Shown here one piece after another: positions 23,909 to 55,822 of a DNA stretch of 64,000 nucleotides. Both the position numbers and the translations under genes were made by a program. The notes beneath the pieces were generated by a model. That model saw only the letters and a program-made list of their open reading frames with translations, had not been told where the DNA came from and ran no database searches. The DNA lies in the NCBI GenBank assembly GCA_963281255.1, contig OY725492.1, positions 992,001 to 1,056,000 of the forward strand, in the 5' to 3' direction. Origin of the DNA: Aphrocallistes beatrix. Lineage: Eukaryota; Porifera; Hexactinellida; Sceptrulophora; Aphrocallistidae. How positions within the stretch are numbered: the stretch's first letter is position 1; each line of letters starts with the position of its first letter.

Positions 23909-24893
23909 TTTTAAATAAATACGAAAATCGCCAAATTTAATGTTAATTACTTCTTGTTACCAATGTGTACGTTGATGACTATTTTCATAATAGATTAGGA
24001 TATTCTTATAGTGGCGTATCCAGTATTATGCAATGGGGGCCAATGAATCATGAATTGTTTGTAATACAGTCCTAAGGTCTGTTATATCCAGTGGCATACC
24101 CAAAACTAAGACTAAACAATAGTGCGCCGATAATGGTTATTGAATGTGACAGTCGTTATATACAAGCATACTTTTATACCATTAATATTTAGTTATACAA
24201 ACCACCTTAACTAGTATACATACCTGGTTTATTCCAATGACTTACTTGAGAGTTTATTATATACACACGTACTTATGTTTAGTTCCTTCAACACCTCCAA
24301 TCAACATCATGGTATCCTCTTCAAGCAGCACTGCGATACAGGCAACATGGAATGCTCCTGATTTGATAAATCAAAATGGAGTTTTAACAAGCTACCAAGT
24401 TAAATATTATGGATCGGTGTTGGATACAGCTGAAAGAACTTCGGATATAAATATTAACACATTATCTAAAACTCTCACTGGACTTCTACCATATGTTTAT
24501 TACTGTGTGATGATTCGGGTTGCAAACGGAGCAGGATTCAGTCAATTTAGTTCTGCAAATTGTGCACGCACTCACGAAGCAAGTAAGATCTATGCATAAT
24601 CTTATATATTATGAAATATATCAGGAGTTTAAAATGTAATGACTTTGCATTTTTCATAAAGATGCAGCTGTATATAGGGATTTTCCATCCATCTCCCATT
24701 GATATACAATAGCATAAACGGATATTTCGCCGGATGCTTCGTAGCTGATATCTTTTCAAATGAAATTATTGACTACAAACTGTTTAGAAACCTGATTGAT
24801 TGGGAGAGTGAAAGTGAGCATTTTGGAGAGTAATATTTATAAGAGCAATATGTGAGATAAAATGAACATTAGAAAATCTAAATCTAAGCATGG
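23909..24893 (+). repeat. Segmental duplicate (partner 43946-44933)
   Basis: About 985 bp containing one FN3 exon and both flanking intron pieces. It is nearly colinear with 43946-44933, for example TATACATACCTGGTTTATTC upstream and AAGAGCAATATGTGAGATAA downstream. The left limit is exactly the end of the H1 copy. Confidence 0.85.
24283..24582 (+). CDS. FN3 exon 1
   Basis: Acceptor TTTAG before 24283, donor GTAAG at 24583, 300 bp, entering and leaving in phase 1. Encodes one fibronectin type III domain: PSTPPINIMVSSSS, IQATWNAP (core Trp), LTSYQVKYYG (core Tyr), TLTGLLPYVYYCVMIRVANG and GFSQFSS. FN3 domains are extracellular adhesion or receptor modules. It is 13.9 kb from the next FN3 exon, and may belong to the same gene or be an orphan duplicate. 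No stop codon in frame. Confidence 0.82.
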
Positions 24894-25515
24894 CCTACTT
24901 AACTCAGGCCTCACAGTAGAATGTGAAATTTCGACCAGGGATGCGATCGAAGCCGAACAATGAAATACCAACTTTTCAATATTTCGTGGTAATTTTAGTA
25001 AATAATGATTTGAGTGATAGCCTTGAGCGTTCACATTTGATCTAACCCTCATTGATTTCTATTTTAAATGTCTCCATCATACTATACTATATTGAGTATT
25101 GAAGTGATATCATATCATATATTTCATTTAAATAATTGAAATAAACAAGACAACACTATTACAATCACAATTAATAATGTATTAAAACAGTTTTACAATA
25201 CATAAACTTTCTTTCGATCATTTTAGCGCTGTTGTTGTCTCTCATTAACAAATTGAGGGTTGAGTTACTGGCATGTGAGAAAGGTTGGCCGCGCTTACAG
25301 CTGAAGTAAATAAAGAAAAATAAAGTTAAACACATACTATATTAAAATATAAGGATATTAAGAATTAATTTTTTTCAATTTACGTTTTTCAATTCCTCTA
25401 CATACTACCATGGAATTATAATTTTATTACTTTATTAGCTATCATACAATTTCCTGAAACAAATAACAACCTACGTAGAATCGAAAAATGAGGAATATTG
25501 CAGGAGCGACATGTA
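24894..25515. other. Intronic sequence, nothing recognised
   Basis: AT-rich, no supportable ORF, repeat boundary or RNA gene seen after the duplicated block ends. Confidence 0.4.
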
Positions 25516-26409
25516 CAGGGTGGCTTATAAGTTCTGTCCCAAGCTTCATTAGGTATAAAATTTCTTATACTCAAACAATCTCAATTATTATGGTCTTTAG
25601 AGGTTGTAATTCGAATATTCTCAATGATTTTAAAAGATTTTTCGAGTCTAAGACCTGGAACTGTGTTTTGTATGGTGAGTTTTGTGGAGAAAATATGTGT
25701 CCTGACTCGCAACGAAAATTGAGAATCAGGGCCACTGCTTCTGTTAAAAATATCTCTATAATCGATGTTCCATGACGATTTAGCACCAGATACCTTTCAT
25801 TGACTATGGAAATGTTTCACGAATCCATTGAATTCATTATCAGAAACGAGATAAGATTATTATTTCACGAGATCAAATTAGGTACATTTTGCAAAATCAC
25901 CCAATATGGCACTTTTTTTCACATCACCAAAAAATCTGATCCAAATGGTTCTCAATATATCCTGATCTAAACATCCTATATTTCTACAAATTTAGAGTGT
26001 TCGAGGAAAATGTGAGAGCTAATTTGTCCTAGAATTTGAAGACTCTAGAAAGATAATTTGAAAAGCAGTGATCCCTGATTCTCGAATTTCTCTGCGAGTC
26101 AGGACACATTTTTTCTCCACAAAACTCACCATACAAGATACAGTTCCAGGTTTTAGACTCGAAAAATCTTTCAAAATCATTGAGAATATTCGAATTACAA
26201 TCTCTAAAGACCATAATAACTAAGATTGTTTGAGTATAAGAAATTTAATACTTAACCCGAGCACGTCCAGGAATGTTGAATTGAAAGTGAAAGTTAATTG
26301 AAAGTGAACTGAAAATGAAAGTGAAAGCTGGGTCATTTCTATTTATACCTTTGACCCCAAGTAATCCTCGGGTTAATGAAACTTGGGACAGAACTTATAA
26401 GCCACCTTG
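25516..26409. mobile_element. Large inverted-repeat Tc/mariner-like MITE
   Basis: 894 bp, termini CAGGGTGGCTTATAAGTTCT and inverse, flanked by TA. Arms of more than 200 bp mirror each other; their mirrored open frames (25571 plus, 26029 minus, both MVFR[GD]CNSNILNDF) are palindrome artefacts. A fragment with GGTATAAATAG-type sequence is inserted near 26272-26376. Confidence 0.8.
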
Positions 26410-26540
26410 TATTTCCTCAGACATCTACCACTTGAGTTTAAAGCAAGCTCGACTAGAATTTTGCTCGCTGGCCCTTCATGGTAACAGACGAACAATGCAG
26501 GACCATTTTTTCTGAAGGCTAGAGACCATTATAGCAATTA

Positions 26541-26637
26541 CAGTTTTCGTAGGATTATCTTGTCATATATTGGATCCTATAATTTTGCTTCCCTTATATG
26601 ATATATCGGGTTTTACGTGAATTTCATCTATTTGAGG
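26541..26637 (-). pseudogene. P transposase fragment
   Basis: The minus strand reads QIDEIHVKPDISYKGSKIIG, matching QMDEIHVKSTFTYKGGKIIG of the P transposase at 18871-21721. Only about 32 codons remain, with stops after. Confidence 0.7.
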
Positions 26638-26710
26638 ATGGCATGCTTTTGTTCATTCGAAAAAGAACACGTTGCTTGCCTCAGGAATGGAAAGAATATG
26701 TCACGAGCGT

Positions 26711-26889
26711 TAGAGGACGACAGTAGTTTTACTTATTAGTCAACCATTGTGAACTTATTTCGCTAGCACACTTCATCATAGTCAAGCCAGATTACTAGTA
26801 CGTATATAGTGTTGTGTCAACTTTATTTGTATTTCGTATTTCATTATAGACTTGCTTACAATATATTCATTGTCATTAAGTTCGTAACA
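26711..26889 (+). repeat. 5' LTR
   Basis: About 178 bp, matches 31934-32098 apart from small indels (ACGTAT, TATTTCG) and scattered substitutions, so the copy is not recent. Confidence 0.8.
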
Positions 26890-26939
26890 TTAAATACAAT
26901 AAACTATTAAACCAATTACTATCCTCTCAATATTAAGGA

Positions 26940-28045
26940 ATGGCTGGGCCACTATCGATCCCCCTCCTCCATGAAGGAGACCGCATAGGAGACTGGAGAC
27001 ACCTTTTCAGAGCAGCGGTAACTAACTTACTCGCGGAGGAAAACGGACAAACTAGGGCAATCCAACTTCTTCCAGCATACATTAACCGGAGACCCGCAGA
27101 AAAGGAATTAATTAAAGATCTAGGGAGCTCATCCAAGCCGCAAAGCGTGAGCTCATTGAACACGGGCACGCACTTAACAAAGGTAATCGAGACTTCGAAG
27201 CGATTGCAAATGTCGCTGTGATCTCAAAATCTGAAATCCCGGCGAGCCTTATAGGAACCGATGAAGCTGACGACGAAGAGACGCTAGCACGAAATATGCG
27301 CAACACGATCTCTTACTCTCGAGGTTTTAGGAGAATTCAAAGTAAAGCAACTACGAAACGTCGCGAGGGTTGCTACATTTGCGGAGGCAATCACCTCTGG
27401 AAATATTGTCCTCTAAAGAGATGCCCGGCATGCGGCTAGAAAGGGCATAAACTACAAGACTGCAATTCTGGCAAGCCCGGTGGTGGTGGTGGACGTAGGG
27501 TTTTCAGTGCAGAAATCGAACATAACTTACCTGAGCTGTCAGTTATCGTGCCAGTAAAGATTAACGGAAATCCGATCACAGCGATATTAGATTCAGGAGC
27601 ATGACCATCTGTTTTAGACTGCGAAACTTTGAGAGATTTGGGGCTTACTGAACATCTGCTGGAAAATCAAGGTAGGATATATGGTTTATCTCAATCACCG
27701 ATTGCCTTAATCGGGAGTGCCGAGTTAACCGTGGATCTTGGCGACGACCAGATTGTTCTACAAAGATTTCAGATAACTAGCACCGGCACCACGCGCATTT
27801 TGGGCAGGGATCTATTGAGAAAATTCGGGCCTACAGAGTTCGATTGGGAAACACGACGAGTAAGGCAACGGAACGTGTGGAAAGAATCTGGAGCCACCAT
27901 CAAAGGAGGAGAACCGTTGTCCCGTGCGGAAGTAGCTCTCATAGAGGAGGATTCCTCAGACATTTCCAGCAGCCCACCTAACATCTACCCCTCCTTGTCC
28001 CCGACTCATAGAGAGAGACTTGCTCGATTATTAAACGGAGTGTAA
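26940..28045 (+). pseudogene. gypsy gag-protease (stops and frameshift)
   Basis: Starts MAGPLSIPLLHEGDRIGDW at 26940. After a shift near 27215 the frame continues with two zinc knuckles, CYICGGNHLWKYC and CPACG*KGHKLQDC (TAG inside the second). A retropepsin active site follows, ILDSGA, itself followed by a TGA (27603). Then ITAILDSG-type sequence leads to GTTRILGRDLLRKFG, ending at 28045. Gag coats RNA and protease processes the polyprotein; here two stops and one shift kill it. Confidence 0.85.
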
Positions 28046-28059
28046 ATCCCTGAGAGTCG

Positions 28060-29858
28060 CACCAGCTGTGGAGCGAGAGAATTTTTTTGGAGATCCTGTC
28101 CTCATATGCAATACATGATCCTATTATTCTTGCTACAAGGACCTAAGAACGCTCAATATGTTCACGACATTCAAGATACCATTCTCGCCCTGCTTGCCAA
28201 GTCTGTTCGTGATGATATTCTACTATAGTTAAAGAACGCTAAATTTTTTTCTTCAATGTGTAATGAATGTAAGGATTGCGGAAAGGATGAACAAATATCG
28301 GTCTCTCTGCGATATACTGACGAAGGACTTTTGCATGAAGATTTCTACAATTTCGTTCGTGCAGAAGGTCTAGACGCAGAATCGGTAAAAAAAACAAATT
28401 AAAGGCGATACTGAATAGTTTGGAAGTAGACAGCAAGTCTCATTTAGTTGCACAGTGTTACGACGGGGCGGCTGTGATGAGCGGGAGAAAGAGGGACTTC
28501 AGGCCCTCATGCGTGCAGAAGTGTGCCCCAAGGCGATATATGTACACTGTTACGCTCATAGACTCAACCTAGTAGTTATTAGCAGTGTATTCTCAATTCC
28601 CAAAGCTGGTGCCTTTTTCGATAAGTTGGCTGCGTTGCATAAGTTTTTCTCAGCGACGGTACCGCATGATCGATTTGTTCAAACACAACATCAACTCAGG
28701 GAAAATGTAAAAGAAGCTGATGCTCTGCGTATGAAAGAGTTGAAATCCTTGTCAAAAACGCGCTGGTATTCCCAAGCAGAGGTCTGTGACGCAGTTATTG
28801 CAACTTTAAGTAGCATTATTGATTGTGCTGGATTTTTTGCTGAAGACAACAACCACGACAGAAGAGCAGCTGCAGTAGTCATTTTGGGATTCATCGACAC
28901 GAATTTTATTGTAAACCTGGACCTATTCCAAGATATACTCCGTAAGTCTAGTATGACCGCGAACTACCTCCAAAGCAAGGAAATGGACACGGCCAAAGCT
29001 GTGGAACTCATTGCAGCTCTGAAGGCCAATTTGTGAGAGAAGACTTGTTCGAAGAAGTATGGATTCGTGTTGTGCAAGTAATTACAAAACACGACATTGC
29101 ACCACCAATTGAGCGCCGCCGTAGAAGATGCAGGGAAGATTCAAATCAGCGTATATGGACTAAAGACGATTAAAAGGTCAAGCTTTTTGACACAGTGATT
29201 GGGGAGTTTGTGAAAGAGCTGGATCTTCGTTTTGATGACGAAGTTTCATGCATCCTCAAAGCCATGTCACCCATGAATCCGTTGTCAAAGTTTTTCAAAA
29301 CTTTGAAATAATGATGCCTTTCGTAGAGCACTACGAAATTCGTAAGGATTTGTTAAGAAGCGAACTTGAGGTCTTAAAAGAGCAATACAACAATAGCAAA
29401 CAAGAATGTAAGTCTATTCTCGATATTTTACAATTTGTGTACCCTCATCGTGTTTGTTATTCCCAGTTGTACACAACTTTCCTTATTGCTGTCGTAATAC
29501 CTGTAACGACAGCGGAAAACGAAGGATCATTTTCTTGTATGAAACGTGTCAAGACATATTCACGCAGTGTCGGCGATGACAGGCTGGGAGACCTTGGAAC
29601 TTTATCAATAAACAGAGAAAGGTCGTCCCGAATCAACATGGAGGACATCGTGGATGACTTCGCAAAACTAGGAAATCGTAGAATCGCACTTATATAAGTA
29701 CGTATTTATAATTTCATACAAATATAAATAAATCAATTGTTGCTACAAATGTCTTTAATGATTAGTTCTCATTGGCGGGTAATCTGTACCCAAAAAATGT
29801 TGGTGCCCCACTGGAAACGATTTGTGCCCCCCAGTGGCGGCGTCCTGGCGCCGCCTCT
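28060..29858 (+). mobile_element. hAT transposon (ZMYM6-like) inside gypsy
   Basis: The right boundary is a hAT-like terminus CAGTGGCGG...GCGCCGCCTCTG at about 29830-29858, immediately followed by gypsy RT-thumb sequence. The left boundary is unclear, and the N-terminal part of the transposase is missing. Confidence 0.6.
28130..29697 (+). pseudogene. hAT transposase, TTF/ZMYM6-like
   Basis: Degraded N-terminal part (CKDCGKDEQISVSLRYTDEG, about 28262-28340). Then 28455-29036 with AIYVHCYAHRLNLVV, KFFSATVPHDRF, SKTRWYSQAEVC, and 29248-29697 with PVTTAENEGSFSCMKRVKTY and LGTLSINRERS, the hAT C-terminal dimerisation signature. Frames are joined only through shifts and stops. Related to the transposase at 47180-49420. 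Confidence 0.85.
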
Positions 29859-31733
29859 GGTCTCCGCACAGGGGCATCGCCCAGTCCCTTCCACCATCGC
29901 GAGGATTTCAGAGGCTCGGCAACCTAAAGGTCGGAAGGAGCTACAACGTTTTTTAGGCATCGTGAATTATTACCGAAGTTACATATCCCAGATGGCCAGG
30001 ATAGCCGAACCACTATACAAATTGACCAGCAAGGATTCAGAGTGGAAATGGGACGATGAATCTCAGGAAGCATTCCAAGAGTTAAAGCGTTTTCTGGCTG
30101 ATTTCCCGATTACTTTGGCCTTTCCCAACTGGGACAGTGATTTTTACCTTCAGACGGACGCCTCTTCAGTAGCTGTGGGTGCCGTACTACTACAAAAGGA
30201 TGAGGAATCAAAGTTGAGGCCAATAGCATTTTTCTCATCAGGGTTGACAGAGAGCCAGAAGAGATATTGTGCTGGTGAATTAGAGTGCTGGGCGTTAATT
30301 GCAGCGAGTCGAAAATTCAGAAAGTATCTCCAGGCCGCAAGCAAAATATATTTTATCTCCGACCACAACCCTCTGTGTTGGCTTCGGAAGCAGAGAGACC
30401 CTCGCCATAAATTTGCCCAGTGGATCCAGGAACTGGAATCCTTTAACTATGAGGTGCGATATATTCGGGGCGAATCTAATGATGTAGCAGATTACCTCTC
30501 GCGCCTGAAAGTCAGACGTAGATCCGGACATAAACGATGAAGTAGAATACTTCGAGAGGCATATTTTCTCGGTTTCCGATGGAGATCTCTTACAGAGGAT
30601 ACACGAGAGTCAAAACTCTGACATTGTGCTAACATACGCCTCGAGAAACGAGGTCCTTACAATAATTCATAACGCTGCTCACCCTGGTGTAGCCAAGACT
30701 CTCGAACTAGTTTAGCAACATTTTTATTGGAAAGGGATGTGCAACAACATAGAGGAATATTGTAGAGAATGTCTAGTTTGCCACCGCAACAAACGGAAGT
30801 GTACACCTAAGGAGGAGCTAGTACCTATTGAAGAACCTTGCGAACCGAACCACATGTTTGCTTTTGACATAGCTACTACGCCCCGGTCTAGCTCGATACA
30901 TAGACATTTCATGATAATCACTGATTTATTCTCTAAATTTATCGAGCTGGTACCATTGAGAGACCAAATAGCGAGTAGTATTTGTCAGGGTCTCTTAGAT
31001 GGATGGATCTTCAAGCATGGGCCCCACGCATCATGCTAAGCGACCAAGGACCCAATGTTGATGGTTCCGAGGTCAGGAGATTGTTAAACGATTTTGGCCC
31101 TATCATCCCGAAGGTGACGGACAGGCGGAGAGGGGAGTGCAGACAGTCAAGCAAGTAATGAGATGCATGTTGGAGGATCGGAACTTGGAAAAGGATACAT
31201 GGCCGTCTATCCTCCTGGAAACCTCATACGAGATCAACTCGATGCCGAATGCGAGCATCGGATACTCACCTTCCAGGATTATGTACGGTGTAGAACCGCG
31301 TCAGTTGGCCACGTCGAAACTGCGTCTCCGAAATAAACTAACACACGCCTCCATCGATGACTGGTGTGAAGAAAGTGGAAAATTGCGAGGAGATACCCTT
31401 CGGGAAACGAATGAAAACTTGAAGGACGCTAGGGGGAAAATGAAGAAGTTTTACGACAGAGGGAAATCTATTTCCGATGTAGAAACAGGCGACCATGTGT
31501 GGTTGAGGAATCAACCAAGGTTGAGTGGTCTCGATCCGTGCTACATGGGTCCTTACCAGGTGACTGGGCATAAAGGAGTAGACATTGAGCTACAAGTCGA
31601 AGGCGGACGTAAGTTAATACACCTCAATCGATGCAAAACCTTCAAACCCTCTGATCGATGTAGAATTAACAACGAATTCAGCCCGGACGGAAATCATAGC
31701 CCTAAAGGGAAGGCACACGACCACACTACCTAA
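29859..31733 (+). pseudogene. gypsy RNase H and integrase
   Basis: 29859-30540: RT thumb LQRFLGIVNYYRSYISQ and RNase H (LQTDASSVAVGAVLLQ, GELECWALI, SDHNPLCWLRK). 30650-31039: integrase zinc region (CLVCHRNKRKC) and catalytic FAFDIATTP. A shift near 31035 leads to LSDQGPNVDG and YHPEGDGQAERGVQ, then LETSYEINSMPNASIGYSP and a C-terminal KLIHLNRCKTF, ending at 31733. The RT palm and catalytic YxDD are not present anywhere in the element. Confidence 0.88.
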
Positions 31734-33864: not shown

Positions 33865-33913
<49 letters not shown>

Positions 33914-33949: not shown

Positions 33950-33996
33950 TAGCGCAGATTCCATATTAATATGTTCAAGTGCGTGTAGGGTTTCAG

Positions 33997-34200
33997 TTGG
34001 GGGGGCTCCCCCATATTTGGGGGGGACCCCCCCATTTCTATCAAATTTTGGATCCCATTTTGGGGGGCCCCTTCAAATTGGGGGGGGACCCCCCCAATTT
34101 TTATTATTATTATCCTCGATTTGGGGGGTACCCCCCAATTGTTTCTATTTTAGCAGTCTATATGGGGGGTCCCCTCCAGAATTGGGGGGGACCCCCCCAT
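33997..34200. repeat. G/C-palindrome array, left arm
   Basis: Blocks of the form TTGGGGGGGACCCCCCCAA alternate with AT-rich spacers (seven or more blocks). Inverted partner of 36120-36324. Each block can form its own hairpin, and the G runs could form quadruplexes. Confidence 0.9.
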
Positions 34201-36000: not shown

Positions 36001-36324
36001 TGGGGGGACCCCCCCCAAATAAAAATATGACTAATGATAAAATCGGGGGGACCCCCCCAAATTTGGGGGGGTACCCCTAGGCAGAAATCTAAATGTTAAT
36101 TTGGGGGGGGTTCCCCCCAATTCTGGAGGGGACCCCCCATATAGACTGCTAAAATAGAAATAATTGGGGGGTACCCCCCAAATTTGGGGGGGCTCCCCCA
36201 AATCGAGGATAATAATAATAAAAATTGGGGGGGTACCCCCCAATTTGAAGGGGCCTCCCCAAAATGGGATCCAAAATTTGATAGAAATGGGGGGGTCCCC
36301 CCCAAATATGGGGGAGCCCCCCCA
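36001..36324. repeat. G/C-palindrome array, right arm
   Basis: At least ten G6-7/C6-7 palindromic blocks. 36120-36324 is the inverse of 33997-34200, including spacers such as TATAGACTGCTAAAATAGAA. 36001-36119 adds further blocks. Confidence 0.9.
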
Positions 36325-36382
36325 ACTGAAATCCTACAGTGCGCTGTACAATTCAATAAAAGTACGTAGGTGTGTGTTATGC

Positions 36383-36469: not shown

Positions 36470-38098
36470 TTAAGTGGTTGTGTCGTGTGCGATACGGAAA
36501 AGATGAGTTTTCAAGAGTTTTTTGAAGAGAAGAAGTGAGGGGGCATTTCGAATGTTCGGAGGGAGAAGATTCCACTCAACAGGCGCAGCTAAAGTGAACG
36601 CACGATCACCCAGAGTTTTGGAAGATTTGATAGTAGGATGCTCAAGGAAGATGGCGTTGGATGATCGTAGAGTACGATTGAATGACTTAACCTGTATGAG
36701 CTGGATGATATAGTCCGGGGCAAGAGAATGGATGGCTTTGTAAGTTATGAGGAGGATTTTGAAGAGGATACGGTGTTTAACAGGCAGCCAGTGGAGGTTA
36801 ATAAGAAGAGATGACGAAAAGGTACGAGAGACATTGTAGATAAGCCTGGCTGCACTGTTCTGGACTCGCTGGAGTCGAGCTAAGAGGGATGAAGGGCAAT
36901 CATACAAGAGACTGTTACAATAATCAAGACGAGATGTGATAAGAGAATTAACAAGAGTTCCACAGACTTCCCTAGAGAGATACTTTCTAATACGCCGGAT
37001 GTTATAGATGTAGTAGAAGCAGGAGGAGGCAACTTTGCTGACCTGATAGACATTGAGAGGGTATTGTCAAGCCAAGTTCCAAGATTCCGTACTTCTTTGG
37101 AAGAAGAGATTCTCGACTCACCAACAGAGATGCTATCAGTTTGAACCTTAGATAGTTGTTGACGAGTCCCTATTATATGGAACTCAGTCTTGGTGTCATT
37201 GATAAGCAACTTGTTGGTGAGGAGCCAGGAACGGATCGCGGAGATGCAAGATTGGATGGCGGAGAAAGCAGACTCTTCAGAAGAGATGGAACCGGGTTTA
37301 AAAGAAAGATAGACCTGAGTATCGTCGGCATAGCAGTGCGTGTCGGAGAGGTGGGACCTAATGAGGTCGAATAGAGGACTAGTATAGAGGCTAAAGAGAA
37401 GCGGACCAAGACAAGAACCCTGAGGAACTCCGTGTTGGACCGGGATATTGGAAGAATTAGAACCCTTAGTCGAGACGAATTGAGTCCTAGCAGAGAGGTA
37501 GGATTCAAACCAAGACAGAGAAGAGCCGCAAATGCCGAAATGAGACTGGAGACGGTTGAATAAGATGGTATAGGTAGAGATGGTTTGACCAAGGATGCTG
37601 GGATAGGATCGAGGATGCAAGATTTATTAGGAGCAGAGGAAACAAGGGAAACAATTTCTTCCTCAGATAATTCTTTGAATTGGTGGAAAGTATGTTGGAA
37701 TTCGATGTTTGAATTATCTGAGGGGGTAACGGAAGACGACGATGCACTTGAATCAATGGTGGAACGGATGTTATCTACCTTAAGAACAAAGAAGTTGGCG
37801 AGTTCCTGAGAAAGAGCAGCCTTATCAGCATGAGGTGGTAGGATCTGTTGCTGGCGTAAGCCGAGAAGTGTGTTAGCCTTACGGAAGAGTGAGCGCTGGT
37901 CATGACAGGACTGACTGATCCAATCAGAATAGAAACTGCGACGTTCCCTGTTCATCAGGTCAGTCACAAGATTCCTCTGATGCTTGAATTCAGCCAAATG
38001 GTCAGAGTCATTAGACTGGCGCCACTTCCGTTCAGCTTTCCTTCTCGCTCGCTTGGTCTGCTTGATGCTACTGGTGAACCAAGGGACTTGCCAGATCC
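36470..38098 (-). pseudogene. Non-LTR retrotransposon ORF2 (CR1/L2-like), internally deleted
   Basis: The minus strand begins within the endonuclease-RT linker (WQVPWFTSSIKQTKRARRKA, about 38095) and runs through NRERRSFYSDW and ALSQELANFFVLKVDNIRST to PNKSCILDPIPASLV (about 37590). It then jumps to YTILFNRLQSHFGICGSSLSW, so RT motifs around the first catalytic Asp are missing. The rest is present: PVQHGVPQGSCLGPLLF, CYADDTQVY, and the C-terminal LQRVQNSAARLIYNVSR and LHWLPVKHRILFKILL, in frames 37620-36880 and 36907-36470. The endonuclease is absent (5' truncation). The element copies itself by target-primed reverse transcription; this copy cannot. Confidence 0.88.
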
Positions 38099-38334
38099 AA
38101 ATATATTGTATTCTAGTTTTTATTTCATTCTAGGTCCTAGTCAATATTGTAGTTATGCCGAACGGCCCAACCACGAATATTGTATAGGATTTGAACTTTG
38201 AGTGACTATAACTTCATATTTATTCCTAGTTCGAAACTGATATTATGCATTAATTCTTATACTACTAGTACTATCGATAAACAGTATAACAATGGTTGAA
38301 TTACTTTAATTTTTTGGGGCCTTGTCACCTTAAT

Positions 38335-38875
38335 TAAGCGAACTCGGTTCAATAAAAATCCTATATAAAAAATGAAATTGGGACCAGGAGGTTAGTTCAT
38401 AATAAACGAATGTTCATATTAAATGGGTTCATTATAATCGACCCTGACTGTATGTATAATTTCACGATAACAGTACTTTTTTATAATACAATATAGCTCA
38501 GGAGCATATTTTGGATACGTAAATGAACCATATTTACATACATCTATCAATTTAGTTCCTTCAACTCCTCCAGTTAACTTGATAGTATACTCTTTAAACA
38601 GCACTGCGATACAGGCAACATGGAATGCTCCTGAACTGAGAGACCAAAATGGCGTTTTAACAAGTTATCAAGTTAAATATCATGGATCGGTGTTGGATAC
38701 AGCTGAAAGAACTTTGAATATAAATATTAACACATTGTCTGTAATTCTGACTGGACTTCTACCAAATGTTTATTACTGTGTAATGATTCGAGTTGAAAAC
38801 GGAGCAGGATTTAGTGAATTTAGTCCTCCAAATTGTGCACGCACTCAAGAAGCAGGTAAGATTTATGCATGTGAA
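38335..38875 (+). repeat. Segmental duplicate (partner 54727-55260)
   Basis: Shared upstream intron (AATGAAATTGGGACCAGGAG; AATATAGCTCAGGAGCATAT) plus the FN3 exon, matching 54727-55260. Confidence 0.85.
38556..38855 (+). CDS. FN3 exon 2
   Basis: 300 bp between a TTTAG acceptor and a GTAAG donor, phase 1-1. One FN3 domain: IQATWNAPELRDQNGV, LTSYQVKYHGSVLD, ILTGLLPNVYYCVMIRVENG, GFSEFSPPNCARTQEA. Closest relative in the window is exon 7 (54944-55243), with which it also shares the upstream intron. Presumed extracellular module of the host gene. Confidence 0.88.
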
Positions 38876-39616: not shown

Positions 39617-39916
39617 TTCCTTCAACTCCTCCGGTTAATTTGACAGTATACTCTTTAAACAGCACTGCGATACAGGCAGAATGGAATGCTCCTGAATTGA
39701 TTGATCAAAATGGAGTTTTAACAAGTTACCAAGTTAGATATAATGGTTCAGAGTTGGATACAGCTGAAAGATCTTTGAATCTAAGTATTAACACGATGTC
39801 TGTAATTCTTACTGGACTTCTACCAAATGTTTATTATTGTGTAATGATTCGTGTTGAAAACGGAGCAGGATTGAGTGAATTTAGTTCTCCAAATTGTGCA
39901 CGTACTCAAGAAGCAA
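39617..39916 (+). CDS. FN3 exon 3
   Basis: 300 bp, TCTAG acceptor, GTAAG donor, phase 1-1. FN3 signature IQAEWNAPELIDQNGV, SYQVRYNGSELDTAE, LTGLLPNVYYCVMIRVENG. Only 160 bp of intron separates it from exon 4, the tightest spacing in the array. Confidence 0.9.
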
Positions 39917-40076: not shown

Positions 40077-40376
40077 TTCCGTCAACTCCTCCAGTTAACA
40101 TCACAGTTTTCCCCTTAAACAGCACTGCAATACAAGCAGAGTGGAATGCTCCTGAATTAATAAATCAAAACGGAGTTTTAACACGATACCAAGTTAAATA
40201 TCATGGTTCGGTGTTGGATACAGCTGAAAGATCTTTGGATATAAATATTAACAAATTGTCTGAATCTCTCATTGGACTTCGACCAAATGTTTATTACTGT
40301 GTGATGATTCGGGTTGAAAACGGAGCAGGATTCAGTGAATTTAGTTCTCCAAATTGTACACGCACTCAAGAAGCAA
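40077..40376 (+). CDS. FN3 exon 4
   Basis: 300 bp, TCTAG acceptor, GTAAG donor, phase 1-1. FN3 domain with ITVFPLNSTAIQAEWNAP, LTRYQVKYHGSVLD, GLRPNVYYCVMIRVENG. The intron that follows (from 40377) recurs at 51610 without any exon before it. Confidence 0.9.
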
Positions 40377-42211: not shown

Positions 42212-42281
42212 TCCCTTCAACAACTCCTCCAGTTAACTTCACAGTATATTCTTTAAACAGCACTGCGATACAGGCAGAATA
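42212..42281 (+). pseudogene. FN3 exon 5, truncated
   Basis: An acceptor TTTTTAG and the first 70 bp of an FN3 exon (PSTTPPVNFTVYSLNSTAI..., with one extra ACA codon) run into unrelated repeat sequence at 42282. No donor, so it cannot be a normal exon. Its upstream intron matches that of exon 8. Confidence 0.85.
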
Positions 42282-43620: not shown

Positions 43621-43945
43621 TCTTGATGTGGAGTCATTAAGTTGAAAGCTTATAAAGTGCGTAATTAGGATGTGAAGAAAACGAATGAAAGCCAGATTTA
43701 CCGTATATGTTACTGATTCGAAGTTAATAGCGTTCTTCTTCATTGGAGTTATGTAAAATAAATTTAATTAAAATTTGAAGTAATAATATTTTAAAAACAT
43801 GATTAAATTGATAGAAGTTGTATGTCAACTTATTGCGATTGTGTAAAATTGAGTAAATAGTCCCATGGTGATCAGAGAGAATTGTAAATTAAGGGAGTGC
43901 CCCCCCTCCCAAAACACCACTGATTGTCACTCAGCAGATATTTTA

Positions 43946-44933
43946 AATAAATACGAAAATCACCAAATTTGATGTTGATCACTGCTTGTTACCAATGTGT
44001 AGTTTGATGACTATTTTCATAATAAATTATGATATTCTTATACAGTGGCATATCTAGTATTATGCAATGGGGGCAATGACTCATAAACTGTTTGTAGTAC
44101 AGTCCTAAGGTCTGTTTTATCCAGTGGCACAGCCATAACTAAATTTAGACTAAACAATGGCGCGCTGATGATGGTAATTGAATGTGACAGTCGTTATATA
44201 CAAACATACTTTTATACCATTAATATTTAGTGATACAAACCACCTTAACTAGTATACATACCTGGTTTATTCCAATGACTTACTTGAGAGTTTATTATAT
44301 ACACACGTACTTATGTTTAGTTCCTTCAACTCCTCCAATCAACATCATGGTATCCTCTTCAAGCAGCACTGCGATGCAGGCAACATGGAATGCTCCTGAT
44401 TTGATAAATCAAAATGGAGTTTTAACACGATACCAAGTTAAATATTATGGATCGGTGTTGGATACAGCTGAAAGAACTATGGATATAAATATTAACACAT
44501 TATCTAAAACTCTCACTGGACTTCTACCATATGTTTATTACTGTGTGATGATTCGGGTTGCAAACGGAGCAGGATTCAGTCAATTTAGTTCTCCAAATTG
44601 TGCACGCACTCACGAAGCAAGTAAGATCTATGCATAATCTTATATATTATAAAATATATCAGGAGTTTAAAATGCAATGACTTACATTTTTCGTAAAGAT
44701 GCGGCTGTATATAGGGATTTTCGATCCGTTTTCCATCAATATACAATAGCCTAAACGGATGTATCGTCGCTGATATCTTTTCAAATGAAATCATCGACTA
44801 CAAACTGTTGTGAAATCTGATTTTTCTAACACTGATTGATTGGGAAAGTGAAAGTGAGCATTTTGGCGAGTAATATTTATAAGAGCAATATGTGAGATAA
44901 AATGAACATTAGAAAATCTAAATCTAAATATCC
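43946..44933 (+). repeat. Segmental duplicate (partner 23909-24893)
   Basis: Colinear copy of the block around FN3 exon 1, including introns on both sides. Confidence 0.85.
44321..44620 (+). CDS. FN3 exon 6
   Basis: 300 bp, TTTAG acceptor, GTAAG donor, phase 1-1. Nearly identical to exon 1 (SSSSTAMQATWNAP, LTRYQVKYYGSVLD, TLTGLLPYVYYCVMIRVANG). The differing TRYQV is shared with exon 4, hinting at exchange between copies. Confidence 0.88.
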
Positions 44934-46250: not shown

Positions 46251-47179
46251 GCATGTGAATAAGCAACAATTGTGAATCATATTCAAGGAACTGTTACACG
46301 AAAAATAGACACCCCCAGAATTGTTCCCACTGGTCCATATATTTCGTAATATTTTGAGCCCCCTCGAAACTAATATTTTAGTGTTATCCTCTAAAATATA
46401 TGGGCCAATAACGGAATAGGTGGCGTGTATAGAAGGCTTTTTAGTTGTCATTAGTACGGTAAACAAATGCTCTCTGTGACTAATAGTGACTCTAGTCATG
46501 ATATACGTCAGGGCCGTAGACTCGAGTTGAGGATTGGTAGGGTCTTTGGGAAAGGACTAAAAAAATATAATTCGAATGATACTAGAATGTTTCGATCTAA
46601 ACGTTCAATGGAAGACAAAGAACAGACGAACTCGGTATGCTCGACTAGTAGAGTCTCCGAACATTCAGATGGTTGCACTCTCTACTGCAACAGCTCTGGA
46701 TCTAAGCATCTAGCAGGGCCTTCTGACATCTGTAAAAACCATAGGCGCCAAGTGTGGGTATCTGGAAGGGGGATGGCGCCCCCCAGGTCTGGACCCTGGC
46801 GGGGCCGTGGTGCTAGGCAGTGGAACAATGGAGAAAGCTGTGGTATGGCAGGAATCCACACAAACTTATATGTTACAACTAAACCCCAAAATGATGTTAA
46901 TTGAGTCTAAATATATATCCCAATTACATTTTTGCTTCCACTATAGTCCGAGATTTTCTTTTCCCTAGGTAACAACAATAGCTGTATATCAATATTTGAG
47001 CATCTAAGATTTAAAAAATTTCCTGGGGGCTTTCCCTCCAGACCCCCTTACCGTCGCTCGCTCTTGGCCCTCCCAGGTTTTATTCTATTTTCTAAAACTT
47101 GGTGCCTATGGTCAAAATGCGAATGCAGAACCCACACTGCCAAAACTAATTAACTATCCCAAAAATACCCATGCCGTTC

Positions 47180-49420
47180 GTTTGTGCTCAACTGGTTTTC
47201 GAAACATAAGTGAACAGAATAGTCACAAAAGGAAATGCCGTGTACTGTTGTCCTTGCCGGTTTTTCTCTCGCCGCTCAGACATTCGAATCACTCCATTTG
47301 CAGCTGCATCAGGGTTCAAAAACTTGAAGGATACTTCCATCCGAATGCCAGAGCACAGTGCGTCTGAAAGACACAAACAATCAGTTACTGCTTGGGGGGA
47401 GTTCTTGAGGATGCATGACAATAATGCCAGTATCGCTCAAATGCTAAATGTCGACCATGCTAAACATATTCAAGAGAATCGGCACTATCTAACAGCTATT
47501 CTGAAATCTGTACTTCTTTGTTGCCGCCGGCATGGCATCGCCTTTCGTGGACACCGTGAGGATCTAACTAAGATAAACGCAAACCCTGGCAATATCCTTG
47601 CTGTTTTTGAGAATTGTGTCAGAATATGATAATATTGTGTCTTCTCGACTGCTGGGCGTGGATGGTATGGGTAGCAAGAATCCATCCAATGCAAAGTACA
47701 CATCGAAATCAATTCAGAATGAGCTGATCTCATAGCGGCAGATATCGTTCTAGAAACAATCTCTGCGGAGGTGCGGACAACTAAGTACTTCTCTCTCCTG
47801 TGCGATGAGTGCAAATGCAGCTCTAAGACAGAACAAATGAGTGTAGTGCTTCGCTATGTCACTGTAGACTGCAGTATTACCGAGTCCTGCATTGGGTTCT
47901 TTGCCTGTGAAGGACTGGATGCAGTATCTCTCTCGAAAACCATTCTAGACTGCCTCAGGGATGTCAAAATCGACTACACAAGTGGTATGGTTGAACAGTG
48001 CTATGACGACGCTTCCGTTATGCGTAGGATCCACTGGGTCTTCAGGGGCGGCATACCCGGTACGGCAGGTGCGGCGAGCGCCGTACCACTTTTGAGTGGT
48101 CCGGCGTCGACTTTTCTGAAAGGCTCAGCTTTGCTGTACCATTACTATGATCTGATTAAAACAATTCATTGCAACTTAATAAATAATGTTATGCTAAATA
48201 GACGACAGCTGAATTGTCGTTAATTATGGTTGTAGATCAATGAGTTAGGGAGTATAAAAAGTAATGGACAGTTTTGAATACCTGGTACGGCGCAGCCACA
48301 ACAGTTTTGAATCTCTACTGGAAGATATGTGCCAAATATTCCGCCGTACCACTTTTTGAGAGGGTGTGCCGCCCCTGGGCTTCCAAAGACTCATCAAAGA
48401 AGTTGCTCCACTGAGTTTTTATGTTCACTGCCATGCTCATAGACTCAATCTGGTGGTTGTCGCAGTATGTACTAACGTTCGATGCGTAATGGAAATGTTG
48501 CATACTCTACGATCTTTGCATAGGTTCTTCTCTGCCGCTGTTCCTGCCAGGCCAAAATTGGTCCGGGGACCAGTTTTAGTTGCGAAATCTAGTCCGGGTG
48601 ACATTTTAGTGCAGTTTCTGAAGAGAGCTGCCCCTATAACAAGGACAGAGTACCACGTCCGTCCATATGTATGTATGTTGTATCTCCGTATGCGCGCTAC
48701 TGTAAAAGAGTTTTCATAAATTTAGTCGTCCCGATGTATTACGATATCATATCTTAAGTGCCAAGTGAGATATGAATACCGAAGCTGGGGAAAGCAATCG
48801 GTCCCAATTGCTCGTGTCCGGATCTTACTCTAGATAGAGCACAACATATAGTGTGCTCACTAAGCCAAGAGATGGATCCTCAAACATTTCCAAACGCAGA
48901 TGGGCAATAGGACCAGATAGCTAACAAAAGCTAACGTTATTATTGGCTACTGTGGACTACCAGCGTCACCTGTTCGTCGTATCAGAAGGGCTAGATCAGA
49001 CATGGTAGAGTATCGTAAAAATATCTAGGGATCTGATGAGTTTCATCAGTTGGTGTATATCCCTATATGCGCTGCTGTCCATGAAGGACTAACCCGGCGT
49101 TTCTTCGAACAAGAGCACAATGACATCTACCATGGCATATCTGCTCTGACTTCAGGATCTGAAAGGTTCCTTGAGGCAGCTATCATCGTGTCCTTCGCTA
49201 ACTGTTTCGGATTGCTTAGAACTGAAGTTGAGGCCGAAATGTTAAGAACAGAAGTCACTGTTTTGCGTAACCTTTTTTTGGGAAGCCGAAGATCTAATCT
49301 GATTAGATTTTTGCAGTTTGTGCATCCTTTCATGCGATGTATCCCTATAATTACGCAACTGTCCAACCATTGCATGTACTCTGCCTTGCACTACGGCTGC
49401 AAATGAACGTTTGTTCTCTT
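47180..49420 (+). pseudogene. hAT transposase, TTF/DUF4371 type
   Basis: 47210-47629: TTF-type N-terminus (YCCPCRFFSRRS, GFKNLKDTSIRMPEHSAS, ENRHYLTAILKSVLLCCRR). After a shift, 47640-48040: SEYDNIVSSRLLGVDG, VRTTKYFSLLCDECKCSSK, IGFFACEGLDAVSL, MVEQCYDDASVMR. The frame is cut by a MITE (48043-48377) and resumes LIKEVAPLSFYVHCHAHRLN to 48570. About 500 bp are missing or replaced, then 49130-49420 gives the C-terminal part (FLEAAIIVSFANCFG, LIRFLQFVHPFMRC). It is a cut-and-paste transposase relic related to 28130-29697 and to the fragment at 63251. Confidence 0.82.
48043..48377. mobile_element. hAT-type MITE inside the transposase relic
   Basis: 335 bp, termini CAGGGGCGGCATACC and inverse (GGTGTGCCGCCCCTG); sub-terminal GCCGTACCACTTTTGAG is repeated near the right end. 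Flanks GGGTCTTC and GGGCTTCC look like an imperfect target duplication. Confidence 0.7.
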
Positions 49421-49960: not shown

Positions 49961-50109
49961 AAGAATCATCTCCGCTCTACCTTGAGTAACGATAGACTTA
50001 GTGGGTTAGGAGTTCTTAGCGTAAACTGAGAAAGGTCAGGATTTATCAATCTAAACCGCGTAATTGATTGCTTTGCATCTCCTCCACGACGCATTGAAAT
50101 TAGGTACAC

Positions 50110-50496: not shown

Positions 50497-50696
50497 GGTA
50501 CACTTAGGAATTAGTACTCATTATTTTTAGAAAAAAGTAAATAACAATTTGTTTCTACTTTTTATATCAGGCACCAGTAAGAAAATCTAGGGTAGGTTGA
50601 TCGATGGTGCGCAGCTGGCACCCTCGCTCACCTCTAAATCCGCCACTTATCATGGCCCTACCAACCCTACCGGAGCCTACGCCTTTGCACGAATAT

Positions 50697-51607
50697 GAAC
50701 ACTAAAATAGTAAACGTACCAAGTTGCACTCTTAGCAAGGTACTACTCGTGTTGAGCTTGTCAGGACCTATAAATTGTGTTTTGGCTCCTAGATATATAA
50801 TTGAATCTACTGAAACGTGGGTCTATTGGGACATGTCCCGTATTTTAGTTTAAACCGGGGATATCCTGCAGCTGTCCCATCATGTCCCGGATCTTAGTAA
50901 CAACCATTGTTTAACCCTACTTGGACTTGGGGTCAAAGGTATAAATAGAAAATTCCCACTTTCATTTTCACTTCAACATTCCAAGTTCAATTAGGGTTAA
51001 GTGTTGGTATGACTAGAATGAGTTACTTCTTAGTATCATACTGTGATATAACAAATCCATAACAATACAGTATTAGTATGTAATTGGGGACAAGTATATT
51101 CAGGAATTTTGAACACCTGAGTATTGTCCATCTAATGTATATACGCTTCGGTGACTTTCACTTGGACATTCTGACACACAACAGTATTTAAATTGTAATT
51201 GTATTCATACCCTCAAATTGTATTAATAATATTGTCAAACACAACGAAGGTATTGAGCAAAGATACAATATAAATAATCAACAATAATTATCTACGTACT
51301 TTAGACGATCATGATCTTTGTACTTAAGGATCATGATCTCCATACTCGCACTTAAGGGAGACCGATCATTTAAGAGTGGCACATATATTTCAGTATAACT
51401 TTTAAATATTGGTCCCCGGGGATCCAAATATTTCGAATTGTAAGGACCGGGGCCGATACCATTCCAGGGGCAGTAGACTCGGAATGAGGATTGGGTGGGG
51501 CCTTTAGGTTTGCATGATTGGTAGGGCCATTTTGGACAAATCGTATCATAGCTAATAGAAGGTAATAGCCTTTGGCTAATTCATGTAAGGCAAAGGCCCT
51601 ACCAACG
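50697..51607. other. Intron, no gene seen
   Basis: Holds the TATA-like shared fragment at 50935-51010 and a hAT-like terminus at 51464 (CAGGGGCAGTAGACTCGG). Otherwise AT-rich without features I can support. Confidence 0.4.
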
Positions 51608-52860
51608 TAAGATTTATGTTTAATGAAATACTCATAGATATGTTACATATGTCAAAAGTAAACATAATGTTTTGAACTTTTTAGTTTGCCGACTATATTA
51701 TGTATAGTAGTCAACTTCTGAAATGAGTGGTTATAATGATATTTTTTCTCGGTGATTTTCTGTATGGCCAAACCATAAGAGATTAGGATCTGAAATTCTG
51801 GGAATAAGTGCTTTGAGAGCATGAGATGTGCAACAATGTGTTCAATTTTCGATCCGATACCCAGAGGACAGAAAAAGACACTTTTAAATGGCCAGACAGG
51901 GTGTGAACTCAGAATCCATGAATGTAACCCTATCTCTTTTCTTGAGGTACAGAAGACAATTTTATCACCTTCTGCAGTAGCGGATTCTTTCTATGATGTA
52001 TCATTTTTTCACAATCTTTATTTAAAAATTAATTATTTAGTTCACACTTTTCAAGTAACACTATTTACCAGAAGCTAGCGTGAGATTACTAAAATTTTAT
52101 TCTTGAAATGTATATTTCCATTGATGCTAGTACATAGCAAATAACTAGGAGTTTAGACTTATAACTATTACGTTGGAACAAAATTATATTATTCTATAAT
52201 TACTGAGAAATTAGTATAATTATTCATATCCATATAAAGATAAAACTATGCATGTGTTTAAAACTTAATATCTCCACACATTAAAAAGTGATATAAGAAA
52301 ACTTCTAACAAATAAATATTCCCTCATCATATATCCTGACATCCTTTGATGGATATACAGGTATCCCTCTTTTACGCGGTAGATGCGTTCCTTTAAAAGT
52401 GCGCTAAAACGAAATTGCGTGAAAACGGCTATTCTCATAATAACACATATTAAACCTATAGATGCGTTCCCAAATTATTACCGAAATTAAATACATATAT
52501 TTTGAATTCCCAATAGAAAAAATTGTTTAAATTCTAAATCTGAAATAATTATCGCATTGTTCTAACTAGCAAAATCGTTTCTCGGTGTTCTCATTATATA
52601 TTTCTTTTAAATCAGACATCTAATAATTCGGATTCATCCTCTTTTGTGTCAGAGAATTCTTGAGTGGCATTTCAAATTTCTGCTTTGTTGCCATTCTTGA
52701 AAATCCCGAGTTAACCGAGTAGGACGTAAGTCTTTGTGCTATCCAGAAGAATATGTATGAATACCCGTAAAGTTCTCGACAAAGTAATATGGGGATATAT
52801 TGAGTTAAAATATTAAGCAACCACGAAATCGTGCTTTCATTTATACTCCTACCCTGTGTC
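51608..52860. repeat. Repeated intron block, copy 3
   Basis: Begins exactly with the GTAAGATTTATG that follows exon 4 at 40377, but no exon precedes it. Continues colinear with 40377-41230 and 32276-33160, including the Tigger-like piece at 52357. Confidence 0.85.
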
Positions 52861-53266
52861 ATCCCTTGTTCTGTCTTTGCCTATCAAGTATCAACTAATA
52901 ACATCAAACAAACTATTTGAACTCATATTAGCAGAAACAAAATATTAAAAAGTCTGTCGACAGACCGATAGTGCAGCTCCAGGAAGTGACTCGAAGGAAC
53001 ACGAAATGTGAATATAGGATTAGATCGGGAAATACTCATTTTAGAGTATTCTAGTAATGTACATTTTAAAATATCCTACATTAGCCGTTGCGAGCTATTT
53101 TTTAACTTAAAATAAGAGTTTTTTCAATAGGTGTGAAAATATGTATGCATACATGCTAGTAACTCACAAAATATTCACATTGTTACTTTTAAAATGTGAA
53201 AATCGGATTCCACATATTAAAATACCCTACATTAGCTGTTGAGAACTCACTTTTAGCTTAAAATAA

Positions 53267-53268
<2 letters not shown>

Positions 53269-53297
<29 letters not shown>

Positions 53298-53322
53298 CAT
53301 ACATACATACATACATACATAC
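53269..53322. repeat. (ACAT)n microsatellite
   Basis: Thirteen or so perfect ACAT units. Confidence 0.98.
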
Positions 53323-53684
53323 AGCACTAAAAAAATGAAGCAAACCTAGTGATTGGTGAGCAAATACGAATAAGGAAAAAATGATTTTCACTTAATATGC
53401 CAAACAACAATTTGCTTGCATTTACTTTCCAAAAGTCGACGATAGCTGTATTTGGCACATCTATCAATTATTCCAGATGATACTATTCCCATGTGACGAC
53501 AAGGCAAACCCCATGAAGATGGAAATAAGCAGGAACACGAGTTTACTTATACAAAATCTTCGAAAATGACCCTATAGATAGTCATCTTTCTTCATCGCTA
53601 TCTTCAGGTTTCTTCCTTCTCCACCACAATTAATAGATTATAATTAGCTTGCTTATATTACATATTCTTTGAAATCTTATACAT
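53323..53684. other. Intron, nothing recognised
   Basis: AT-rich, no supportable coding or repeat structure. A 22-bp perfect palindrome centred on GAATTC lies just downstream at 53734-53755. Confidence 0.4.
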
Positions 53685-54259
53685 TATAAAGCCTAAAACC
53701 TATGTAATGAGACCTCTAAGCGTCGAGGGCATGCAATCCCGGAATTCCGGGATTGATAAAATATTCTAATAAATTTAATTTCTTTTAGATTACAAATGCT
53801 TGTTTGATATCTCAAATGCATTATAGTGTATAGCAATAAGGAAGATTATGTGCATAGTTTCACACCTTTATATACATATTTTCACACAATTTGACGAATT
53901 TTGAAGAATATACTAGATACTAGCTTCCAACGGGTGACATGGGATTTTTAGGGGTGTAGATTTCGATATCATATTTTCGAGTAAATTTGATAATTAATTT
54001 GTTTACTTTTGTTTACAATAGATGCATAAAGTAAACAAATTATAGAAGTAGGCTAAAGACTAGCTTCCAGCAGTTGACATGGAGTTTTTAGGGGTGTAGA
54101 TTTCAACTATTATATTTTCTGATCAATATGATAAATTATTTATATACCTTTGTTTACATTAGATACATAAAGTAAACAAATCCCAAAATAGTCGCCGCAG
54201 GGAGACTGCGACCCAAAGTGTCCGCAAGCCGCGAAGCGCAAGCAACCGAAGCGCGCTTG
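53685..54259 (+). mobile_element. Helitron-like H2 copy, nearly complete
   Basis: Starts A|TCTTATACATTATAAAGCC and ends GAAGCGCGCTTG|T. Two ~120-140 bp units lie inside (each with TGACATGG...TTTTTAGGGGTGTAGATTTC). 575 bp. The terminal hairpin is degraded. Confidence 0.6.
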
Positions 54260-54605
54260 TGGTTAATATATTTGTTGAACCTTTTTATTGACATGTTTTT
54301 AATGTAAGGTAAAGATGACTCTGAACTTTGGGAATTATGCTAAAGTATGTTGCCCAAATACATTACCTCAAATATTCCTGAATTCTTCACACCTAGAGTA
54401 TGTGTTATATAATGACATACTAGCTTAAATTGACTAAAGAAAAGCTTTGGTTACTTGGGACAAAATGTTTATTAAGTATTACAAAATATTTCGGTTTATA
54501 TATATTTGTGATCAAGTGATGATGAATTATCGAAAAAGATTGTCTTAAAGGTATCCAAGTTTGCCAAAACAACTATTTTAAATTCTTTAGTAAGGTGGGG
54601 TTGTA
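54260..54605. repeat. Repeated intron block, distal part (partner 33529-33864)
   Basis: Colinear with 33529-33864. The left partner ends in the (ATA)n tract, the right one runs on towards exon 7. Confidence 0.8.
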
Positions 54606-54656
54606 TACCAGTTGTATACCATTAATTAAATTAATCAACACTTTCTAACATGACCG

Positions 54657-54840
54657 CAGTCAGGGTCGCTTATTGTGAAGCACCATAAGACCAAAAATCT
54701 GTTCATAATAAAGATACTTTATATTAACCGAACTCGGTTCAATAAAAATCCTATCTAAAAAATGAAATTGAGACCAGGAGGTTAGTTCATAATAAACGAA
54801 TATTCATATTAAGTGGGTTTATTATAAGCGACCCTAACTG
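54657..54840. mobile_element. Tigger-like MITE
   Basis: Termini CAGTCAGGGTCGCTTAT and inverse (ATAAGCGACCCTAACTG). The right end is also present before exon 2 (about 38438-38455) as part of the duplicated block. Confidence 0.65.
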
Positions 54841-54943
54841 TACGTATAATTTCACAATAACAGTACTTTTATAATACAATATAGCTCAGGAGCATATTTT
54901 GGACACGTAAATGAACTATATTCACATGCATCTATCAATTTAG

Positions 54944-55243
54944 TTCCTTCAACTCCTCCAGTCAACTTCACAGTATACTCTTTAAGCAGCACTGTGATAC
55001 AGGCAACATGGAATGCTCCTCATTTGATAAATCAAAATGGAGTTTTAACAAGTTATCAAGTTAACTATTATGGATCGGTGTTGGATACAACTGAAAGAAC
55101 TTTAGATATAAATATTAACACGTTATCTGAAACTCTCACTGGACTTCTACCATATGTTTATTACTGTGTGATGATTCGGGTTGCAAACGGAGCAGGATTC
55201 AGTCTGTTGAGTTCTCCAAATTGTACACGCACTCACGAAGCAA
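54944..55243 (+). CDS. FN3 exon 7
   Basis: 300 bp, TTTAG acceptor, GTAAG donor, phase 1-1. FN3 domain: VIQATWNAPHLINQNGV, LTSYQVNYYGSVLD, TLTGLLPYVYYCVMIRVANG, GFSLLSSPNCTRTHEA. Shares its upstream intron with exon 2. Confidence 0.9.
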
Positions 55244-55522
55244 GTAAGATATATATAATGAGGTAGTGAAGGTTAAATTTCGCAAAGACCTCAAAATTTT
55301 AAAATTGCCGAAAAGTGAATTCTAGCTTCCATTTAACAAGTTCAAAATAATCGAGCCTATTATATATTAAATTTATGAATTTTTCTATAAAATATGGAAG
55401 ATACATGGAAGAGATGATCCCGAAGAGCGACTTAGGTAGACACAAAGTGTCCGCATGCCGCGCAGTGCAATCAAATGAAGCTTGCTTGTATGTTATATTT
55501 ACCTACTTACGTCTATTTTTAG

Positions 55523-55822
55523 TTCCTTCAACTCCTCCAGTTAACTTCACAGTCTATTCTTTAAACAGCACCGCGATTCAGGCAAATTGGAATGCTCCTG
55601 AACTGAGAAACCAAAATGGCGTTTTAAAAAGTTACCAAGTTAGATATAACGGCTCAGATTTCGATACAACTGAAAGAGTTTTGAATCTAGGCATTGGCAG
55701 AATCTCTGTTAATCTCACTGGACTTCTACCAGATATTAATTACTGTGTATTGATTCGGGTTAAAAACGGGGCAGGATTCAGCAAATTTAGTTTTTCAAGT
55801 TGTACAAGAACTTACGAAGCAA
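55523..55822 (+). CDS. FN3 exon 8
   Basis: 300 bp, TTTTTAG acceptor, GTAAG donor, phase 1-1. The most diverged FN3 copy: AIQANWNAPELRNQNGV, LKSYQVRYNGSDFD, RISVNLTGLLPDINYCVLIR, GFSKFSFSSCTRTYEA. The in-frame codons end cleanly. It is followed by exon 9, so it is probably the last FN3 of this array. Confidence 0.9.

Follow-up and report, generated by a model that had tools for sequence, protein, structure and literature searches.

The stretch analysed here, the window, comprises 64,000 nucleotides of contig OY725492.1 (C6) of the hexactinellid sponge Aphrocallistes beatrix (C6:992001-1056000). Its repeated 300-bp exons encoding fibronectin type III (FN3) domains are very probably the ectodomain part of an adhesion G-protein-coupled receptor (GPCR) gene, gene B, which extends at least from about C6:963,306 to 1,081,460. 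In coding order the gene has C-type lectin and immunoglobulin (Ig)-like exons, ten FN3 exons, a 291-bp exon, a small exon, and a large exon with the GAIN domain and the seven-transmembrane (7TM) part. We lean towards a fuller hypothesis, in which the product is an adhesion GPCR with a lectin-Ig head on an FN3 stalk of changing length and a GAIN-7TM end. Each FN3 exon codes for a whole domain in phase 1-1, so that its gain or loss in the germ line, or its skipping in RNA, keeps the frame. The row would form a stalk of variable length holding the lectin-Ig head off the membrane, its length would change over evolution by exon duplication and loss, and the GAIN-7TM part would signal. The order and orientation of the parts, their phases where read, the intact frames and the copy numbers are observed; the production of one transcript, the joint use of most FN3 exons, the role of the stalk and signalling by the GAIN-7TM part are what we infer.

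FN3 exons of the window

Domains were assigned with Pfam models and their family cut-offs. The seven strictly 300-bp FN3 exons that the initial annotation had placed by coordinate are all verified: each is preceded by AG, followed by GTAAG, begins and ends in phase 1 and has an open frame. All seven exceed the cut-off of the fn3 model with E-values from 7.5e-10 to 8.6e-14, which excludes chance, and the translations of the other six are 72-88% identical to that of the exon at 38556. Seven is also the count that replaces the eight full exons mentioned in the same annotation. The downstream relative included there is a distinct exon that is in phase, as proposed (1-1), but has 291 bp and no Pfam match at E 0.1. 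The announced truncated copy was located at about 42212-42276, where 21 residues align before stop codons are met. The exons of the row and those that follow it are:

23909..24887, + strand: duplicated segment with an FN3 exon; second copy at 43941-44927, 91% identity
24283..24582, + strand: FN3 exon, 300 bp, phase 1-1; AG/GTAAGA ends, open frame; fn3 E 1e-10
38556..38855, + strand: FN3 exon, 300 bp, phase 1-1; AG/GTAAGA ends, open frame; fn3 E 1.4e-13
39617..39916, + strand: FN3 exon, 300 bp, phase 1-1; fn3 E 8.6e-14
40077..40376, + strand: FN3 exon, 300 bp, phase 1-1; fn3 E 4.1e-10
42212..42276 (about), + strand: truncated FN3 exon, 5' part only; stops after it, expected donor place without a donor
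44321..44620, + strand: FN3 exon, 300 bp, phase 1-1; fn3 E 5.8e-11
54944..55243, + strand: FN3 exon, 300 bp, phase 1-1; fn3 E 7.5e-10
55523..55822, + strand: FN3 exon, last of row B; fn3 E 4e-11
56465..56755, + strand: post-row exon, 291 bp, phase 1-1; no Pfam match at E 0.1
58725..58795, + strand: small exon of 71 bp, phase 1 to 0; genes A and D (see below) have a similar sequence in the corresponding position

A search of the first 24 kb of the window found no FN3 copy. Row B also includes three FN3 exons that closely precede the window, at C6:980811, 987193 and 989131. Among the FN3 exons read, the nearest relative of the exon at 24283 is the one at 44321 (dN 0.023, dS 0.028, the nonsynonymous and synonymous divergences), with flanks that are 90% (5') and 83% (3') identical. 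The duplication that carries both (91% over 1 kb) makes one whole-domain step visible in the window. The exon at 54944 has a 5' flank that pairs with that of 38556, yet the exon itself clusters with 24283 and 44321 in the tree.

Related loci on C6, their 7TM tails and their heads

The genome searched comprises 100.5 Mb in 28 contigs. With one FN3 exon as query, at least 125 FN3 matches are found on C6 between 761 and 1469 kb; copy counts are lower bounds, as 150 of 514 candidates were scored. All matches but one reach at least 148 bits (124/125), the remaining one being partial (79 residues, 114 bits). Off C6, the best FN3 matches listed are relatives on C12 and C4 with at most 56% identity and 113 bits. 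The C6 matches form six loci, labelled by position A, A2, B (the window gene), C, D and E. Copy number differs between these paralogous loci, with at least 61 FN3 exons in A (including the partial match), 46 in D, 10 in B, 4 in C, 2 in E and 2 in A2. Use of all exons would give an FN3 part of 200-6,100 residues, or about 7-214 nm with 3.5 nm to each domain.

Base-by-base reading touched 67 FN3 copies, three of which are cut at a sequence edge; the 64 complete ones are about half of the 125. All of these except the truncated window copy are intact: 300 bp long, bounded by AG and GT, and open in frame (63/64). The donor reads CAA|GTAAGA in 45 of the 63 intact exons. The interchangeability of the FN3 exons by phase, put forward from the window alone, thus holds for the copies read, and it extends to the head exons read in gene D (four lectin, four Ig-like), which begin and end in phase 1. 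Since both ends of the FN3 exons are in phase 1, gain, loss or skipping of an exon keeps the frame. About 30 bases before the acceptor are common to the 63 FN3 exons and resemble TATTCACCTACATACATCTATTTCTAG; the last 12 bases before the lectin and Ig-like exons of gene D differ from this stretch.

Close copies of the 291-bp exon number four in the genome, itself included; rows A, B, C and D are each followed directly by one. The genome search found no close copy at E and A2, and one relative with 34% identity on C20. In gene A, about 5.7 kb separate the post-row exon from the 7TM exon. The phases are compatible from the FN3 exon ends through the 291-bp exon to the 71-bp exon.

The transmembrane part that the initial annotation proposed to look for is present in an exon on the same strand, 23.8 kb past the window end; in this tail of gene B, C6:1080618-1081385 matches 7tm_2 with E 2.7e-33. 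The tail of row D is a 714-codon open frame (C6:1487223-1489364) with matches to 7tm_2 (E 2.9e-33) and GAIN (27.6 bits, cut-off 26.5). The C tail matches the same two models (1.9e-33 and 31.6 bits). Tail copies follow row B (1079769), row C (1137190) and row E (935533); those of rows A (770065) and A2 (758603, partial only) are on the minus strand. Identity to the D tail is 91% for A, 94% for B (564 residues), 95% for C and 89% for E; outside C6, copies are found on C15 (91%) and C20 (56%). Between D and C the ratio dN/dS is 0.09 in the 7TM part, 0.31 in the GAIN part and 0.36 in the cytoplasmic tail (113 aligned codons). The tails are 89-95% identical to that of D while FN3 number varies about 30-fold, which speaks for a change of stalk length in the germ line.

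The head was read in gene D, whereas the lectin and Ig-like positions of A, B, C, E and A2 are search matches. Upstream of row D, four lectin and four Ig-like exons alternate; all four lectin exons exceed the Lectin_C cut-off. Matches before the other rows comprise four lectin and four Ig-like in A, three lectin and two Ig-like in B, and one of each before C, E and A2. Lectin and Ig-like head, FN3 row and GAIN-7TM exon thus follow one order in one orientation at the six loci (the A2 7TM part being partial). Among the gene D exons dN/dS is 0.40-0.77 for lectin and 0.32-0.39 for Ig-like (six pairs each). Variable first exons with their own leaders were considered and gained no support from the part examined, row D's masked end (C6:1444724-1469700): the places of its seven signal-like frames could not be related to the exons.

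Row history and alternative readings

The tree, the site statistics and the flank comparisons are based on the 63 intact FN3 exons (1,953 pairs). The last exon of B (55523) pairs with the last of C (C6:1113983) with support 100/100. The group formed by the last exon of A and two exons of D, the last and the third-last, has support 95/81; the second-last exons of A and D pair with lower support (93/76). Distal A and D exons are intermixed, in a tree with 29 weak branches among its 60 inner ones. Both flanks agree between the last exons of A and D (87 and 91% identity) and likewise between the second-last ones (90 and 83%), which indicates that the membrane end keeps its order.

Exon identity is 0.81-0.96 in every bin and the flanks drop almost to background once about 45 bp upstream or 30 bp downstream are passed, in an ungapped comparison that overstates the drop. 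A collinear flank is common to 99 of the 1,953 pairs, on both sides in 12 of them. In some pairs the flank is closer than the exon, as for C6:822033/1030556 with a 3' flank 95% identical and an exon dS of 0.22. Conversion of exons, like exchange inside them, is possible. That the rows are kept alike mainly by conversion between exons, their function being spacing only, is a very improbable reading to which the similar exons in dissimilar flanks and the pair just named lend some credit; it is countered by the exaggerated drop of an ungapped comparison and by the constraint on the exons (median dN/dS, see below).

Exchange inside exons, suggested by the shared flanks, finds no support in the two tests made, which also speaks against conversion as the main agent. 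The PHI test for recombination among the FN3 exons gives p 0.41. The half-exon test predicts that the half adjoining a shared flank is the more similar half. The 45 pairs sharing only the 5' flank go opposite to prediction (-0.017; p 0.003 relative to random pairs and 0.03 on shuffling the labels). The 40 pairs sharing only the 3' flank follow the predicted direction (-0.011; p 0.05 and 0.19), two more being excluded with the 5' flank unread. Pairs sharing both flanks show the same sign as these (-0.027), and the 3'-only result is for this reason counted as no support for exchange.

Median pairwise dN/dS is 0.55 over 1,951 of the 1,953 FN3 exon pairs, which are non-independent, and points to net constraint on the FN3 sites. 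Localised differences between copies had been singled out at two places in the initial annotation. Both exist, S/R at site 36 and H/Y/N at site 42, but only site 42 is among the most variable of the 99 sites over the 63 copies. Sites that change more than average concentrate at residues 40-63 (13/24 against 10/75 elsewhere; Fisher p 1e-4, scan permutation p 0.004, with sites taken as independent and the tree ignored). Their cluster lies in the C-C'-E part of the fold, with 0/11 in the BC loop and 2/8 in the FG loop, the strand limits being our own assignment.

This clustering is one of the observations favouring the idea that the FN3 row is a pool from which alternative splicing would draw subsets differing by cell or individual, yielding diverse recognition ectodomains. 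The uniform phase of 63 of 64 FN3 exons and of the lectin and Ig-like exons of D (four each) would permit it, and the stretch of about 30 bases common to the FN3 exons before the acceptor is in its favour. The splice sites, however, are as uniform as in constitutive exons (the donor shared by 45/63), and the median dN/dS also counts against it. We regard such a pool as a tentative possibility, on the unlikely side. A stalk built from most exons of the row is the reading we privilege.

The row in the window is interrupted by mobile elements, and a P-element-like transposase lies in the window before it:

19398-21727, - strand: P-element-like transposase with THAP, TNP-like RNase H and GTP-binding domains
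26937..31730, + strand: transposon sequence inside the row; reverse transcriptase (RT) RNase H-like domains at 29728-30537
36473..38129, - strand: pieces of reverse transcriptase within the row, with an RVT_1 match at 36883-37623; LINE-like (long interspersed nuclear element) by eye
46455..49403, + strand: transposon-like pieces inside the row, hAT-like by eye from translations

Ten transposon-like open frames of the window were scanned: eight match a Pfam family (Tc1/mariner-type transposase, THAP with RNase H-like, reverse transcriptases, integrase core, one of the matches being below cut-off) and two, at 28419-29033 and 31062-31730, have no Pfam match. Two tandem arrays of units with G-runs and C-runs (33997-34178 and 36104-36329) flank a 2-kb stretch, and the region at 57-61 kb holds a dispersed repeat with one frame like QARFACLRCAAGGHFVSAGGSLRSPG, present in several copies including other stretches read.

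These insertions and the truncated exon are compatible with rows of mostly decayed duplicates in which a few FN3 exons adjacent to the tail would be used. The exon order of A and D, kept at the membrane end, and the presence of just 4 and 2 FN3 exons in C and E agree with this view. Intactness of 63 of the 64 fully read copies does not, and at C6:778-894 kb and 1374-1469 kb no second head, post-row or 7TM exon is found among the matches listed. Such decay seems improbable to us as an account of the rows.

Several points weigh against the adhesion GPCR with a variable FN3 stalk. The hypothesis is drawn from genomic sequence, and the PHI and half-exon results bring it no support. Gene B is rich in transposons, has one broken exon and may be decaying, and its head is known from search matches alone. 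Neither a start codon nor a signal-peptide exon was located. A Pfam Ig cut-off is passed by one of the four Ig-like exons of gene D, the rest matching Ig models below it. The head of D is preceded by a broken fifth lectin piece, judged by eye at C6:1361.1-1361.4 kb, and one stop interrupts the lectin copy of E. The GPCR proteolysis site (GPS) motif reaches 14.0 bits in D, against a cut-off of 22.5, and is unlisted in C. Its usual residues are H-L-S/T, and the D and C tails have H-S-T at this place, in CNSGHST. With the motif below threshold and this substitution, autoproteolytic cleavage of the predicted receptor is uncertain.

Relation to known receptors and other exon arrays

Adhesion GPCRs of the sponge Amphimedon have 7tm_2, many of them with GPS, and carry fn3 and Ig among their N-terminal domains, thus resembling gene B in the combination of 7tm_2 with fn3 and Ig-type domains, as far as the available part of that account goes (PMC4302439). 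The same part describes proteins rather than exon rows and names repeated SRCR, but neither lectin nor a long FN3 row (PMC4302439). FN3 is likewise listed among adhesion GPCR domains of animals and their relatives in the accessible text of a further study (PMC12716839). FN3-bearing adhesion GPCRs are hence already known; FN3 exon rows in one were not met in the open-licence literature, where no description was found, although figure drawings could show one.

The largest adhesion GPCR is ADGRV1/VLGR1, which in the excerpts consulted has a very long ectodomain (PMC9146371, PMC12716839) and so shares with the predicted gene B receptor both this trait and the receptor class. The repeats here, unlike those of ADGRV1, are FN3 domains, each in a 300-bp exon of its own, and paralogues differ in how many they have. 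The ADGRV1 repeats are Calx-beta domains, and the Calx-beta model has no match in the repeated exons scanned (seven FN3, four lectin, four Ig-like).

In arthropod Dscam-hv one exon is chosen from each cluster, with 12, 48, 33 and 2 alternatives, according to the portion of the source at hand (PMC3364881). Tandem similar exons for extracellular domains between constant exons, as described there, are present here too (PMC3364881). Unlike in Dscam-hv, whole FN3 domains are repeated here and the tail is a 7TM receptor.

Three other regions of the genome bear on exon arrays. At C15:3.87-3.99 Mb, rows of Ig-like matches occur with lectin and several 7TM matches, one of them 91% identical to the C6 tail; none of the FN3 matches listed is on C15, and the array there may be one of another domain. 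C12:4332001-4362000 packs over 30 FN3-like open frames into 30 kb; by eye they belong to several types in repeating order, and those nearest to the window type are 50-56% identical. At C4:4.94-5.89 Mb, 7tm_2 matches number more than 40, whole or partial and some interrupted by stops, and FN3 matches lie nearby, which suggests a second, partly decayed cluster. Exon arrays may be a general principle of this genome, as other clusters seem to array Ig-like domains on C15 and other FN3 types on C12.

In the passages available, two immune studies of sponges count C-type lectin genes, GPCRs with GPS and FN3 combinations as recognition genes (PMC6208332, PMC8242945). One sponge adhesion GPCR responded to microbial molecules, which makes the question of recognition worth asking; the available part of that study is silent on gene B (PMC6208332). 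The boldest view is that of an adhesion-GPCR recognition system with lectin-Ig heads borne by stalks that comprise up to 61 interchangeable FN3 exons. Exon number would vary by locus and by individual, possibly with combinatorial splicing between cells, Dscam-like but wired to G-protein signalling. We hold this view to be doubtful, slightly more so than the splicing pool by itself.

The reach and surface of the predicted receptor could shift in whole-domain steps with the frame unbroken, and similar signalling ends sit on FN3 rows about 30-fold apart in number. Should exon number or splice subsets vary between individuals, these genes would be a concrete candidate for the recognition of self or microbes.

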